From a virus, in the IMG/VR virus record IMGVR_UViG_3300022208_000169, positions 1 to 22,254 of that record: DNA of 22,254 bases; one strand, written 5' to 3'. The notes under the pieces are model-generated. The model searched no databases. It saw only the letters and a program-made list of their open reading frames with translations, and was not told where the DNA came from. Positions 3,999-18,383 of this stretch are shown here, piece after piece; the first letter of the stretch is position 1, and each line of letters begins with the position of its first letter. The translations under genes were made by a program, and so were the position numbers.

Positions 3999-4445
3999 AT
4001 GAATGAATTGGATAAAGAAAAAATAGAAGAAATCAAGAAGCATTGGGAAACCCTAAAAAAAGAAGCCAAAGAAGACCTGGATTTTTCACCAGAAGGAATG
4101 GAATTTCGATTTGACTTGACCCAAGTGACTATTAAGTGGTTAGGCTACCTTCAGGATTGGAAGAAACTTTACATAAACTACGAAAAGAAAAGAAAAAATC
4201 TTCAAAAGGAACTCTTGCTTTTCTATAAATACAGAACCAAAGGTGGATATGAATTCAATCTTGAAACAAAAGACGAAGTAACCTTATTCATAGAAACCGA
4301 TGAACGATACGAAGTGATCTATGAAAAATGTCAATTGGTTTATGCTATTATGGAATATTGCACGGAAGTAATGGATAAGTCAAAAAATAAGGTATGGGAA
4401 ATCAAAAATTGGATAGAATACCAGAAATTAATTCATGGTAAATAG
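3999..4445 (+). CDS. uvsY: UvsY-like recombination mediator
   Basis: This 148-residue, highly charged, mostly helical protein resembles T4 UvsY (137 residues) in length and pattern. It has an N-terminal acidic and basic helix, a W-L-x-x-L-x-x-W-K-K-like segment around residues 47-56, a YEKKRKNLQKELLLFYKYR helix at 61-79, a GG-Y-E-F turn, and a C-terminal helix with a Y-x-x-C pattern. UvsY loads the UvsX recombinase on single-stranded DNA coated with gp32. As in T4, it is followed by uvsW. AAAGG precedes the ATG, and a TATAAATA late element lies 46 bases upstream. The assignment rests on remembered similarity plus gene order and is good but not certain. Confidence 0.75.
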   Translation: MNELDKEKIEEIKKHWETLKKEAKEDLDFSPEGMEFRFDLTQVTIKWLGYLQDWKKLYINYEKKRKNLQKELLLFYKYRTKGGYEFNLETKDEVTLFIETDERYEVIYEKCQLVYAIMEYCTEVMDKSKNKVWEIKNWIEYQKLIHGK

Positions 4446-4521
4446 AGAATCCTAAAATCCCTTATATTAGTTTTAGCGCACGATAGTATATCTTTTATAC
4501 CATTAAAACGGATTTTTGTCA

Positions 4522-5811
4522 ATGCATACGGTCAAGAAAATAAATGAGGCAAAATATTATCTAAAAACAGACAACCCTGATATTTATGATAGGTTGAGTG
4601 GACACTTTGCCGCTAGACCAGAAGGCTATCACTTTATGCCCGCTTATAAAATGGGGGCGTGGGATGGATATAACCGTTTTTTCAGTGGTGGTTTTTTTGC
4701 TTCAGGACTTCTTTCTGAATTGAAAACAAAATTAGATGGTGTAGAAGTTTCCTTTAATGAAGGAATAGACGTTGACTTTAAAGACTTTCAAAAGTTTGTT
4801 GAGAGTTTGAAAATTCCACTGAATGTAAGAGACTATCAGATACAGGCCGCTTATGATGCCTGTAAAAATCAAAAAATAGCTATTCATCTCCCTACCAGTT
4901 CTGGAAAATCTCTAGTCCAGTATATCATCACTAGGTTTCTACTATCTGGAAATAAAAAGGCGCTGATTATTGTACCCATAATAAATCTAGTGGAACAGCT
5001 TTTCAAGGATTTTGTTTCTTATGGATGGTCAGACGCTAGTGACTATGTGTATAAGATATATGGTGGTCAAAAATTTAATGTAGACTATCCTGTAACTATT
5101 AGTACATGGCAAAGCATTTCCAAAAAAACAGATTTCTCTGTATTCAATGCCTTAATGATAGACGAAGCACATTTGGCTAAGGGAAAATCAATTTCAACAA
5201 TCGGTTCTAGCTGTGTGAATGCTGAATGGAGAATTGGTCTATCTGGAACCTTTCCAGAACCAAACACGTCAGATTGGTTTTCAATAGTAGGAACACTAGG
5301 ACCTATAAAAAGTTATGCAAACTATGAGTCACTAAGAGAATTGGGATACTTGGCCAACCTAGAGATAATCAACATCAATCTTGACTATGAAAAAAGTATG
5401 AGGGAAATTGCCTATGAATACTGCTACAAAAATTATCAGGCAGAAGTGGATTATCTGATAGGCATAAAACAACGTAATGAGTTCTTGGCAAAGTTGGCCA
5501 CTAACTTCAAGGATAATGTTCTAGTTCTTTTTACAAGAAAGAAGCACGGGAAGATACTACATGACATGATTAAGGAAAAGGGAAAAAAAGTTCACTATAT
5601 AGACGGTGGGGTAGATACGGAAGATAGGGAAATAATTAGGCAAATTTTAGAAGTAGAAGAAGGTACAAAATTCCTTGAATTTGCTGATATTAAAATACAA
5701 TTAGATTTTTATGACGAAGTTCCTTTAAAAAATGGAACAATAAAATTAGCAAAGAATATTACCTTAGAAGATGATGTATGTGAAAAATGGATTGAAAAAT
5801 ATAAGTATTAA
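4522..5811 (+). CDS. uvsW: UvsW helicase, N-terminal piece, with an extra C-terminal tail
   Basis: This 429-residue piece matches T4 UvsW (503 residues), an SF2 helicase that remodels replication and recombination forks. The UvsW-type N-terminal domain (E-G-Y-x-F-x-P-x-Y-x-x-G-x-W-D-G, about residues 34-49) is followed by Walker A PTSSGKS at 124-130, DEAH at 214-217 and LSGT at 240-243. The start of helicase domain 2 is also present (LVLFTRKKHGK near 334-344, then DTEDREIIRQILEVEEG to about 381). The remaining 48 residues do not look like UvsW and run to a stop before an HNH gene. The rest of the helicase is encoded from 6821. A TTG at 4516 is in frame, but the ATG at 4522 has better spacing from the upstream GGA. 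No composite TGACC promoter is seen in the gap before it. Confidence 0.85.
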   Translation: MHTVKKINEAKYYLKTDNPDIYDRLSGHFAARPEGYHFMPAYKMGAWDGYNRFFSGGFFASGLLSELKTKLDGVEVSFNEGIDVDFKDFQKFVESLKIPLNVRDYQIQAAYDACKNQKIAIHLPTSSGKSLVQYIITRFLLSGNKKALIIVPIINLVEQLFKDFVSYGWSDASDYVYKIYGGQKFNVDYPVTISTWQSISKKTDFSVFNALMIDEAHLAKGKSISTIGSSCVNAEWRIGLSGTFPEPNTSDWFSIVGTLGPIKSYANYESLRELGYLANLEIININLDYEKSMREIAYEYCYKNYQAEVDYLIGIKQRNEFLAKLATNFKDNVLVLFTRKKHGKILHDMIKEKGKKVHYIDGGVDTEDREIIRQILEVEEGTKFLEFADIKIQLDFYDEVPLKNGTIKLAKNITLEDDVCEKWIEKYKY

Positions 5812-6853
5812 TGCCAGTAGAGAAAATAAATTTTTTCAAGAAAAGGTATTAGTATGAATTTTAAGGGTATTTTTATAGATAAACTAGGTGAACCAGAAAA
5901 TATTGAATCATTAGAAAGGTATATAGAATTTGTTAAAGAAAACAAATCTGAATATATAAAAGGTGAAACACAATTTCATCATTTATTACCTAGAGTTAAT
6001 TTCAGTGAAGAAACAAAAAATGAGGAAAATATTTTTTGTTTGACTTATGATAATCATATTGAAGCACATTTATTATTGGCTGAAGCCTATCCAATTAATG
6101 TATATTTAAGACCATTGAATTTCATGTTAGAAAAGAATGGTGAAAGATATGAGTCATATATAAAATTAAAATCGCGTTCTGTTAAAAAATGGTGGATAGA
6201 ATTTAAGAAAAGTGAACAATATATTAATTGGAGAAACAAACGGTCTGAAAATTGTAGTAAGAATATGAATAACGGGCAAGCCAAAAAAATGTCGAATGTA
6301 TTTTATTCAAGAGAAAATAGTAATAGTATTAGGTCAAAACAATTTAAAGATTTATGGAAAAATGATTCATATAGAGAAAAAATAATCAATAGTATGAAAA
6401 AAGAAAGAAACACAAAGGAAGCAAAAATAAGAATGAAAAAAGCAGCCAAGAAAAAATGGGATACTATGTCTGAAATTGATAGGGAAGCACATAGAGAAAA
6501 AATGTTAATCATTAACAATAACAACGATAAAAGGAAAATTGCAGGAGAAAAAATAAAAGAGAAATGGAAAGACCCTATATATAGAGAAAAACAAAAAAAT
6601 AGAAAGTATAGTGTAGGGTCTAAAAATTATTTTTATTGGAATAATGGAATAGAAGAAAAAATAGCAAAAGAGAAACCAGGAGAAGATTGGATAAGAGGAA
6701 AACTAACACAAAAACCTATAAAATATATTCCTTGGTGGAATAATGGAGTAGAGGAAAAACAATTCAGGTATAAACCTGATAATACCTGGAAAACAGGTAA
6801 ACTTAAAAAGGATAAAAACAATGAAACCAACTAGATTAGGAGAAAGAAAAGAG
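5665..6853 (+). mobile_element. Homing-endonuclease insertion interrupting uvsW (limits approximate)
   Basis: The UvsW-like protein sequence stops at about 5664 (...EVEEG) and resumes at about 6854 (AAVLVASY...). Joining those points gives a stretch of the right length and character compared with T4 UvsW (about 20 residues between the conserved D-R and A-S-Y). The insert contains the tail of the first piece, the HNH gene and the start of the second piece. It is visibly more A-rich than its surroundings. I looked for group I core helices and intein splice residues and found neither. The limits are inferred from protein alignment by eye and could be off by a few codons. Confidence 0.55.
5854..6834 (+). 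CDS. HNH homing endonuclease with C-terminal DNA-binding repeats
   Basis: This 326-residue protein has an HNH core near its N-terminus: H42-H43-L-L-P-R, then Y-D-N67-H68-I-E-A-H72. Its middle (about residues 160-250) is very rich in K and E, with repeated W-K-x-D/N-x-x-Y-R-E-K units (LWKNDSYREK, KWKDPIYREK) resembling NUMOD-type DNA-binding repeats. The C-terminus has two copies of a W-N-N-G-x-E-E-K ... K-P-x-x-x-W-x-x-G-K-L module, at about 263-290 and 299-322. Such enzymes cleave an allele lacking the insert and spread by recombination. AAGG precedes the ATG at suitable spacing. The last 14 bases overlap the ATG of the downstream helicase piece, so the two are probably translated together. 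The codon use is strongly A-rich. Confidence 0.85.
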   Translation: MNFKGIFIDKLGEPENIESLERYIEFVKENKSEYIKGETQFHHLLPRVNFSEETKNEENIFCLTYDNHIEAHLLLAEAYPINVYLRPLNFMLEKNGERYESYIKLKSRSVKKWWIEFKKSEQYINWRNKRSENCSKNMNNGQAKKMSNVFYSRENSNSIRSKQFKDLWKNDSYREKIINSMKKERNTKEAKIRMKKAAKKKWDTMSEIDREAHREKMLIINNNNDKRKIAGEKIKEKWKDPIYREKQKNRKYSVGSKNYFYWNNGIEEKIAKEKPGEDWIRGKLTQKPIKYIPWWNNGVEEKQFRYKPDNTWKTGKLKKDKNNETN

Positions 6854-7157
6854 GCAGCCGTTTTGGTTGCCTCTTATTAGGTGCGGAACCTTTTCGGTTG
6901 GAGCAAATTTAAAGAACCTACACCATATCATAATGGCTGCTAATTACAAGTCGAAATACAAGGTAGTTCAATCAATAGGACGTGGACTTAGAAAGATGGA
7001 TGGTAAGGAGAAGGTCACTATCTACGATGTTATAGATGATCTATCGTTTAATAAATTCACAAACTATTCTATGATTCATTATTGGCGCAGAAAAAAAATC
7101 TATGAAAAGGAAGGCTATACAAATCTAAAGGAAAAAAAAGTTAAACTGACCAAATAG
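6821..7157 (+). CDS. uvsW: UvsW helicase, C-terminal piece, frame broken by a stop and a 7-nt gap
   Basis: An ATG at 6821, with AAGGAT 8 bases upstream, begins MKPTRLGERKEAAVLVASY and then meets TAG at 6878. VLVASY is the first half of helicase motif V (T4 UvsW: IIVASYG). The second half, GTFSVG, follows at 6885 in the +1 frame and continues through NLKNLHHII, motif VI QSIGRGLRK and the C-terminal domain to 7157. Deleting the 7 bases TAGGTGC (6878-6884) restores an uninterrupted motif. A plain +1 shift would insert Arg-Cys instead. A TTG at 6867 could start the downstream frame separately, but that product would lack VLVASY. The downstream frame keeps about 90 conserved codons, so selection on it seems recent or ongoing. 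Whether full-length product is made is unknown. Confidence 0.7.
6851..6873 (+). promoter_or_regulatory. Stable hairpin directly before the in-frame stop in the uvsW C-terminal piece
   Basis: The arms GAGGCAGCCG and TGGTTGCCTC pair over 10 base pairs (two of them G-U) around a TTT loop. The arms also encode E-A-A-V-L-V-A-S, and the hairpin ends 4 bases before the TAG at 6878. It could be a recoding element, a weak terminator (no solid T-run follows), or a structure hiding the TTG at 6867. Confidence 0.55.
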
Positions 7158-7187
7158 TTTTCTTTTTATAAAAAGATGTTGTATACT
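7147..7187 (+). promoter_or_regulatory. Composite promoter TGACC/TAGTTTTC/TATACT before gene 55
   Basis: TGACC at 7147 lies 35 bases before a -10-like TATACT at 7182, with a T-rich TAGTTTTC at 7155 between them. The same arrangement recurs before uvsX and before the genes at 21592 and 22109. The -10 box lies about 40 bases before the ATG at 7223. TGACC here overlaps the end of the uvsW coding sequence. Confidence 0.5.
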
Positions 7188-7222
7188 AATGAAAAGTAAA
7201 AATATATTAACAAAGGATATTA

Positions 7223-7612
7223 ATGGCTCAATATTTAAACAACAAAGATTTTTTGACTGAAATGGTAAGGTGGAAAGATCAAGGGTATAAAAAACCAATA
7301 CCAGATACTATAGCAAGTTTTTTTATAGGAATTGTAAGTGGTATAGCATCAAAGACAAATTTCAGCGGTTATACATACATTGAAGATATGAAGTCAGAGG
7401 CGCTTGAGCATTGTGTGAAATATGCTGATCGTTTTGACCCTGAAAAATCAAAAAATCCTTTCGGCTATTTTTCGCAAATAGCCTGGAACGCTTTTCTACA
7501 AACAATAAAGAAAGAAAAAAAATATGCCACTCTTTGTTTTGATATAAACAAGGAATCCGTTGAAAATTCTCACAAGTTCAACAGGAATTTAATCAGCGGA
7601 CATACAGAATAA
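7223..7612 (+). CDS. 55: Late-transcription sigma factor, gp55-like
   Basis: This 129-residue protein matches T4 gp55 in its recognisable core. Y-L-N-N-K-D-F-L-T-E-M at 4-14 corresponds to YVNNKELLQAI, N-F-S-G-Y-T is at 46-51, and there follow F-D-x-x-K-x-K-N-P-x-x-Y near 75-86 and A-W-N-A-F-x-Q-x-I-K-K-E near 87-98. gp55 directs host RNA polymerase to TATAAATA late promoters. It is shorter than T4 gp55 (185 residues), and I do not see the C-terminal hydrophobic and acidic sliding-clamp contact that T4 gp55 ends with. AAAGGATATTA precedes the ATG, and a composite TGACC promoter lies upstream. The TATAAATA elements in this window are its likely targets. Confidence 0.85.
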   Translation: MAQYLNNKDFLTEMVRWKDQGYKKPIPDTIASFFIGIVSGIASKTNFSGYTYIEDMKSEALEHCVKYADRFDPEKSKNPFGYFSQIAWNAFLQTIKKEKKYATLCFDINKESVENSHKFNRNLISGHTE

Positions 7613-7625
7613 AAAGGAAATCAAC

Positions 7626-8744
7626 ATGAGTATTGCCTTAATAACTGATTCACATTTCGGTTTGTATAATTTTAACAAAACAAAATTTTATAGAATGATG
7701 GATTACTTTGATAATGTATTTTTTCCATATGTCCTGGAAAACAATATCAAGGATGTTATTCATTGTGGCGACCTGGTTCATAACCGTGTAGTGATGGATA
7801 ATTACATAGATGGACAGATTAAAAAACGCTTCTTTAAATGGTTTGTAAAAAACAAGGTCAATCTACACTGTATAGTAGGAAATCATGACACATATTACAA
7901 AAACGATATTGAACATAATTGGACAAGAGCAAACTCAATGGAGTTTTTACCCTACATAAAAGTTTATGATAAATCTACAATAATCAAGATAGGTAATTAT
8001 ACATTAGGATTGGTTCCCTGGTTGCCAGATATTGATATGATAAAAACCATTCCTTCAAAAGACGAAGTGGATATTCTATTAGGTCATTTTGAAGTTGATG
8101 GTGCTATGATTACCATTAGCCAAACTTCAAAGAAAGGATTTTCTTATGACTGGTTTAATGGTTACAAACAAGTTTTGTCTGGACATTTTCATATCAAGTC
8201 TACACACAATAATTTTAGATACCTTGGAACACAATATCAAATGAGTTGGGGTGATTATGGGGATTCAAAAGGCTTCTGGACTATTGAAGATAATTTTGTT
8301 TTGAGTTTTCATGAGAACATATTCAGCCCACGGTTTCTAAAACTATACTACATGGAAACAGATAGGAAAATAACCCTGAAATTGGGCGGTATGACAAATG
8401 AGTTACAGGATATTTCTATTGAACAAGCTAGGAAATATTCTGAAAACAATTACATTAGATTCATAATAAAAAAGTTTGATTCACAGGAATTGATGGAAAA
8501 AACTTATAATTCCATTGTCAACAATTCATTGGATAAGATTGAAATATATAACGATTCTCATTTAGTAGAAAATTTTAACTTTGAGGAATTTGAGGAAACG
8601 GTGAAGGATGATGTAGAGATAATCACCATTATAGAAAATTTCATAAAGGGAATAACGCTAAAGGATGGACTAGATGAAAGTAAGCTAGTAAGATTGGCTA
8701 ATAGTATATACAAACAATCTAACTTTTTAGGAGAAATATCCTAA
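7626..8744 (+). CDS. 47: Recombination endonuclease subunit gp47 (SbcD/Mre11-like)
   Basis: This 372-residue calcineurin-like phosphoesterase is the nuclease partner of gp46. The metal ligands are all visible: D8 and H10 in ITDSHFG, D49 in CGDLVH, N86-H87-D in VGNHD, H154 in LGHFE, and H187/H189 in SGHFH. T4 gp47 has 339 residues and the same motif order, including the VYDK and LVPW segments between them. The gp46/47 complex resects DNA ends for UvsX-driven recombination and recombination-dependent replication. AAAAGGAAATCAAC gives a good ribosome binding site. The stop overlaps the ATG of a small exported-protein gene, which separates it from gene 46. Confidence 0.93.
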   Translation: MSIALITDSHFGLYNFNKTKFYRMMDYFDNVFFPYVLENNIKDVIHCGDLVHNRVVMDNYIDGQIKKRFFKWFVKNKVNLHCIVGNHDTYYKNDIEHNWTRANSMEFLPYIKVYDKSTIIKIGNYTLGLVPWLPDIDMIKTIPSKDEVDILLGHFEVDGAMITISQTSKKGFSYDWFNGYKQVLSGHFHIKSTHNNFRYLGTQYQMSWGDYGDSKGFWTIEDNFVLSFHENIFSPRFLKLYYMETDRKITLKLGGMTNELQDISIEQARKYSENNYIRFIIKKFDSQELMEKTYNSIVNNSLDKIEIYNDSHLVENFNFEEFEETVKDDVEIITIIENFIKGITLKDGLDESKLVRLANSIYKQSNFLGEIS

Positions 8745-18194: not shown

Positions 18195-18383
18195 ATGCCA
18201 ACATATGATGTAAAATGTAAAAGATGTAATGAAGAAGGCAGCATTTTTTCTTCTATTTCCAATAAAGACAAGGTGATAGAAAATACAAAATGTGATAAAT
18301 GCGGCGGGAAGCTGGAACAAATCGTTTCAGCACCAACCTTTATCCTTCAAGGTGAAGGTTGGGCTAAAGACAACTACAAATAA
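18195..18383 (+). CDS. FmdB-like zinc-ribbon protein (first of two)
   Basis: This 62-residue protein is a textbook FmdB-family zinc ribbon: M-P-T-Y-D at the start, C-K-R-C and C-D-K-C metal-binding pairs about 27 residues apart, a hydrophobic I-V-S-A-P-T-F segment, and the ending L-x-G-E-G-W-A-K-D-N-Y-K. The frame has an earlier ATG at 18189, but the GGAG at 18184-18187 is only one base from it and 7 bases from the ATG at 18195, so the latter is preferred. FmdB proteins are small putative regulators of unknown mechanism. It is followed at once by a diverged copy. Confidence 0.82.
   Translation: MPTYDVKCKRCNEEGSIFSSISNKDKVIENTKCDKCGGKLEQIVSAPTFILQGEGWAKDNYK

Follow-up and report, generated by a model that had tools for sequence, protein, structure and literature searches.

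Background

To our knowledge, gene 60 of bacteriophage T4 is practically the sole established case of translational bypassing in bacteria and phages, and a 2011 report by Bonocora (cited in PMC8300805) is said to present the T4 topoisomerase genes 39/mobA/60 as a mobile cassette. Fractured genes with split inteins were reportedly described by Dassa in 2009 (cited in PMC10448857). Counterparts of the gene 60 bypass, perhaps working over shorter distances, have long been presumed to exist (review PMC5009743). Refolding of the upstream stem-loop behind the ribosome is believed to set off movement in T4 (PMC5009743, PMC11194080). Here we describe a viral DNA of 22,254 nt (IMG/VR record IMGVR_UViG_3300022208_000169, positions 1 to 22,254; hereafter the window) whose divided uvsW gene is most likely explained by hairpin-driven programmed bypassing over a stop codon, located within a mobile cassette. 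Our search of the open-access literature found no report of a bypass in uvsW.

A uvsW gene broken twice

The window carries on its plus strand a T4-like uvsW in two pieces separated by an HNH ORF, in a gene order that is also T4-like: UvsY (3999-4445), UvsW N part, HNH ORF, UvsW C part and a late sigma factor (7223), followed by ORFs at 7626 and 9244 that, from their position and sequence, look like gp47 and gp46. The gp55-like sigma factor (7223-7612, 129 aa) matched only positions 8-131 of a 181-position profile and is possibly shortened. The N part (4522-5811, alternatively readable from TTG 4516; phrog_16 DNA helicase, E 5e-59) comprises the helicase motifs that precede motif V, matches over residues 1-382 the UvsW of more than 2000 phages in tblastn, a match borne out by alignment, and ends with a novel C-terminal tail of about 49 aa, GTKFLEFADIKIQLDFYDEVPLKNGTIKLAKNITLEDDVCEKWIEKYKY (5662-5808), common to split UvsW N parts and not found in unsplit ones. 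The intervening ORF (5854-6834) encodes a 326-aa HNH homing endonuclease with the motif HHLLPR...N...H (phrog_655, E 4e-11) and overlaps the start of the C part at ATG 6821, which is preceded at 8 nt spacing by a Shine-Dalgarno AAGGA (6808-6812) resembling those of the other genes in the window.

The C part opens with a 19-codon leader ORF, MKPTRLGERKEAAVLVASY-TAG (6821-6880), whose M(A)KP start is common to split relatives. Within it lies an 11-bp hairpin, AAGAGGCAGCC-GTTTT-GGTTGCCTCTT (6849-6875, with arms at 6849-6859 and 6865-6875), whose last base is also the first of the Tyr codon of VASY, with 2 nt left before the stop; by alignment with the family this codon, UAU (6875-6877), would be the take-off codon. 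Directly after it comes UAG (6878-6880), the beginning of a 7-nt non-coding gap, TAGGTGC (6878-6884), and the family sequence resumes at 6885 with GGA ACC... (GTFSVG), in the +1 frame and 7 nt after VLVASY, to continue through the end of motif V and motif VI (QSIGRGLRK) up to 7157 (phrog_9690, E 1e-25; tblastn). The bases of the in-frame TAG, the 7-nt gap and the +1 resumption are exactly those given in a preliminary description of this DNA; the hairpin that it had placed near the stop is likewise present, but is one base pair longer than the 10 bp (6851-6873) reported there and does not end 4 bases before the stop. Among the perfect hairpins of this size in the window it is the most G+C-rich, and a role as intrinsic terminator was discarded, as it is not among the terminator-like sites. 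A second hairpin, of 12 bp (CCAACCTTTATCCTTCAAGGTGAAGGTTGG), occurs at 18333-18362 inside a short zinc-ribbon-like ORF.

The contiguity of VASYG, given for T4 UvsW in the preliminary description, was observed in about 80 unsplit relatives from viral contigs, where 18 residues separate the conserved RE from GTF. The window also yields 18 residues (RE-IIRQILEVEE-A-AVLVASY-GTF) if one discounts the insert (~5662-6850) together with the 7 nt, and so a single gene has suffered two breaks. These flank the hairpin, a ~1.2-kb insert lying directly on its 5' side and the 7-nt gap directly on its 3' side.

The same double break in other viruses

The comparison of related phages that had been proposed for the gap revealed the same double break, exactly at VAS(Y/S)|G, in about 30 viral loci and in one contig filed under a bacterial MAG. 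The break recurs across more than 12 unrelated viruses besides the window, which is more than chance would give. Gap lengths are 4, 6, 7 and 11 nt, covering all three frames, and every gap of at least 4 nt opens with TAG or TGA. Sixteen UvsW loci came from patterns (VA(S)Y, 1-30 free bases, GTFS) that demanded no stop codon, and their gaps open with TAG or TGA in 16/16 cases; chance matches of these patterns outside UvsW nearly all have no such opening. An independent pattern for the tail of the N part, blind to gap and hairpin and equally free of any demand for a stop, gave more gapped loci as well as split loci with no gap. Three loci were added by later scans that did demand a stop in the pattern (L164, L216 and L287, the last being the contig from the bacterial MAG).

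The gaps read TGAC (4 nt), TAGTGA, TAGTGC and TAGTAA (6 nt), TAGGTGC, TGAGGAC, TGAGGTC, TGAGAAC, TGAGTAT and TGAGTAC (7 nt) and, beyond these, TGAATGATTCG. The window's own gap is also found in the divergent virus L137, and although most loci are metagenome assemblies, identical gaps across separate metagenomes (for example in L090/L094 and in L132/L141/L143) argue against assembly error. Searches for relatives with the N part or the HNH protein of the window as query found none, a DNA-level search with L104 gave no match among named phages, and UvsW is unsplit in LR756500-03, huge phages that among the named ones are closest to the L104 group. In a tree of the C parts, used solely for the scatter of gapped lineages given its 98 columns and long branches, these lineages are dispersed, with the gapped L102 sister to the unsplit L007 (support 100/99); L087, labelled as split without gap in the tree and in the break comparison, is an unsplit UvsW. 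Such a scatter is as expected for a moving cassette, and the gap recurs in independent lineages.

Some loci depart from this pattern. L145 (reverse strand) has a split C part with a 1-base frame change at VASY|G and neither a stop nor a strong hairpin. In L086 (4183-4204) the Tyr codon of VASY is replaced by TAG in an otherwise intact, unsplit and gapless UvsW, which may be a nonsense change, recoding or a sequence error. In the gapless split loci of the L131, L160, L152, L138 group, the residues at the break are altered (VASS-NCF or VASS-GCF), perhaps as an alternative escape from a nuclease that recognises motif V.

Selection downstream and the mode of decoding

Every complete C part has an open frame of 82-99 codons. 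Where Ks could be measured between related gapped loci, Ka/Ks ranges from 0.006 to 0.23 (L104/L109 0.057, L132/L134 0.031, L091/L108 0.006), and in several other pairs Ks is saturated at a Ka of 0.06-0.14. For the window, which has no close relative, the sole measurable pair, with the distant L137, gives an uninformative Ka/Ks of 0.70, and selection on its C part is inferred from the family. Judged by these comparisons, strong purifying selection acts on the downstream frame across the family. Its divergence is almost wholly silent, and not the rapid decay in relatives that would have spoken against recoding; from this selection we infer that the frame is expressed. Moreover, no in-frame ATG, GTG or TTG precedes GTFSTG in the gap-6 loci or in L125, L133 and L153. 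Given these missing starts and the gap lengths, a single mechanism has to cope with one or two stops and with frame changes of 0, +1 and +2, which a hop does and frameshifting or readthrough does not.

A +1 frameshift at UAU-UAG G (or UAU-UGA C), also considered in the preliminary description, would insert Arg-Cys in the window, and it has some features in its favour: the 4- and 7-nt gaps are both +1, the stop lies directly after the shift codon, and UGAC is the known RF2-type 3' context, UAU-UGA C resembling the RF2 site CUU-UGA-C. Such a shift nevertheless fails in the gap-11 loci and in the gap-6 loci (TAGTGA, TAGTAA, with two in-frame stops), and AUU pairs poorly with the Tyr tRNA. It would also place variable residues (D, ED, EV, EN, EY, RC) in the helicase motif that is conserved best and that shows no variation in spacing among the about 80 unsplit relatives. 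With gaps in all frames ruling out any one type of frameshift, this explanation, which for the window would predict the tryptic peptides EAAVLVASYR and CGTFSVGANLK, is very unlikely.

Were ribosomes to terminate at UAG 6878 and re-initiate at TTG 6867 (MPLIRCGTFSVG...), the C part would be a separate protein deprived of VASY. This TTG is in frame and near the stop, many gap-4 and gap-7 loci likewise have an in-frame TTG upstream of the resumed sequence, and the leader ORF has a good Shine-Dalgarno. Re-initiation is however unavailable to the loci with no in-frame start, it would lose the conserved VASY that the leader retains in every gapped locus, and the Shine-Dalgarno for TTG 6867 would sit inside the hairpin; initiation only at this codon, named in the preliminary description as a refutation of bypassing, is very unlikely.

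As for the hop, among the frame-compatible triplets it is usually the last before GGN that shows the best pairing with the take-off anticodon. Take-off and landing triplets are identical in L132 (TCG/TCG) and L125 (TAT/TAT) and synonymous in L164 (TAT/TAC), with no other matches; in the window, in contrast to T4 gene 60, UAU and the proposed landing triplet UGC (6882-6884) are not identical, and the latter would pair with the Tyr anticodon GUA in a W-g-W manner. Over ten distinct Tyr-type gaps, 23/30 landing positions are paired (permutation p about 1e-4, in a test that counts related gaps as independent where some share ancestry).

A hairpin that follows the gap

A hairpin of 10-14 bp whose end falls on the Ser codon or on base 1 of the Tyr codon is present in 18 of the 19 distinct gapped upstream sequences, including all 18 that have a stop; the 19th, the 1-nt variant L145, has no significant hairpin. 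Over these 19 sequences, L145 included, the energy averages -17.3 kcal/mol and the mean z is -3.6 against synonymous recodings of the same peptide, compared with 0.07 in 7 split gapless genes and -0.29 in 80 unsplit genes, from which the hairpin is by this measure absent. The arms covary, with 96% of cells paired and 17 both-side changes versus 4.2 in shuffles (0/500), counted on the arms alone as loop lengths differ between loci, and pairing falls to 36-62% when the partner is slid by 1-3 columns.

Hairpin and gap might act at the DNA level only, for instance by blocking self-cleavage by the nuclease, with the C part expressed in some other way. A protective role against the nuclease is possible for the bypass insert of T4 (PMC5009743), and nuclease ORFs lie between the two parts in many loci. 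On the other side, gapped loci whose two parts have no nuclease ORF between them (L090, L094, L103, L104, L133) retain the hairpin, and it is missing from L131 and L138, which bear a nuclease and are gapless, so it tracks the gap and not the nuclease; a conserved stop would moreover be useless to DNA, and we regard an exclusively DNA-level role as very unlikely. By analogy with T4, it is plausible that the gap guards the gene against the neighbouring nuclease. Finally, a plain loss of function, initially taken as the main alternative, or an assembly error could account for a stop and a frame change in a conserved motif of a single metagenome-derived record, but is very unlikely given that the same codon is broken in independent assemblies and lineages, with intact C parts of 82-99 codons under purifying selection and a covarying hairpin.

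The cassette and its tail

The gene is contiguous in relatives and split here with an endonuclease between its parts, as in homing-endonuclease fission. All readable split N parts end with a tail of ~45 aa, and C parts begin with M(A)KP or MAK. Between them, HNH, GIY-YIG-like, unrelated or no ORFs are found depending on the locus, and Vibrio phage K469 and Dickeya phage Ds9CZ have the tail and MKPT with the gap absent. The tail aligns to the block-B half of split-intein N fragments (hhalign to IntN, probability 95%, E 2e-8) that sit elsewhere in the uvsW of L137, L146 and L155, and AlphaFold2 predicts for it a small beta unit (pLDDT 81-91) following a flexible linker. In these three loci another UvsW site, upstream of the tail-type split, is occupied by what looks like a classical split intein whose halves enclose an ORF. 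In L148 (reverse strand, N part ending near locus coordinate 516) the tail is fused earlier in UvsW, after RNKFIKNLALSLNA, and is followed by an ORF resembling the GIY-YIG-like one of L138. The tail thus looks like a mobile module, and more than one insertion site is suggested.

Other identities were tried and rejected. A functional split intein would need the block A nucleophile and a C-intein with HN and C/S/T, neither of which is present: the tail starts at the block-B region, and the UvsW C part begins MKPT...VASY. The tail of T4 gp39 gave a weak hhalign match, and the end of gp39 is native topoisomerase sequence in unsplit relatives. Regarding a group I intron, no Rfam match to its core was obtained in 4400-7800 up to E 1, a search that a divergent or ORF-split core could escape, and splicing at 6884 would lose motif V because the 5' part has no VASY.

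Proposed mechanism and comparison with known systems

We propose that a mobile cassette broke uvsW immediately ahead of the motif V beta strand and that translation of the C part would start at ATG 6821 and run through VLVASY. When UAU occupies the P site and UAG the A site, the 11-bp hairpin would refold behind the ribosome and pull the mRNA forward, the tRNA-Tyr would leave UAU and re-pair near-cognately at UGC seven bases on, and translation would resume at GGA to give the exact family sequence VASYGTFSVG; the product would contain the tryptic peptide EAAVLVASYGTFSVGANLK, and the N and C parts would then assemble in trans. The short hop from UAU to UGC put forward in the preliminary description finds support in the gap lengths, the downstream selection, the gap-linked covarying hairpin and the pairing of the landing triplet. 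Bacteriophages probably harbour widespread mobile short bypass elements, in which a hairpin that ends at the take-off codon would drive the ribosome over a stop and 4-11 nt, no matched landing codon being required; the uvsW-splitting cassette that houses them bears varied homing nucleases and a tail that would be a degenerate piece of a split intein. The family offers about 20 natural variants, which differ in gap length, stop codon, landing triplet and hairpin and would fit into a plasmid reporter, so that the requirements of ribosome release and landing could be read from this variation.

Among the systems with partial likeness, the byps of Magnusiomyces mitochondria are also short inserts bypassed with imperfect landing matches (PMC5009743), but they are mitochondrial, context-independent and have an unused codon instead of a stop. 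Fractured split-intein genes share the split gene, the endonuclease between the parts and a tail homologous to the block-B half of the N-intein; uvsW differs in having neither block A nor a C-intein with HN and C/S/T, and protein splicing is therefore not expected. The nrdA/mobE arrangement of phage Aeh1 is equally a conserved gene in two translated parts with an endonuclease between them (PMC2988022), to which uvsW adds the stop and gap in the C part and the shared intein-like tail on the N part.

The closest parallel is T4 gene 60, as had been noticed from the first reading. In both systems an HNH gene lies close to the split, with the window's HNH protein and the MobA fragment of T4 both matching phrog_655, and both involve a mobile cassette, gene 60 following mobA in T4. 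Both also have UAG directly after the take-off codon, an upstream stem-loop and a C fragment out of frame after a non-coding gap (PMC5009743). The differences are nonetheless considerable: the gene is another one and is broken in many lineages, the gap is 50 nt in T4 versus 4-11 nt in uvsW, the take-off codon is Gly versus Tyr or Ser, with a uvsW landing codon that is usually near-cognate only, and the leader has 46 codons in T4 and 19 in the window. The T4 stem-loop encloses the take-off codon and the stop, while the uvsW hairpin ends at the take-off codon, where by analogy it could act like its T4 counterpart. The M(A)KP start, a candidate for a nascent-peptide signal, also occurs in gapless split loci and is thus not gap-specific. 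The uvsW system would work like gene 60 but is independent of it, not a homologous copy, and a second, independent nuclease-associated gene fission paired with a probable bypass suggests a recurrent strategy rather than an oddity of T4.
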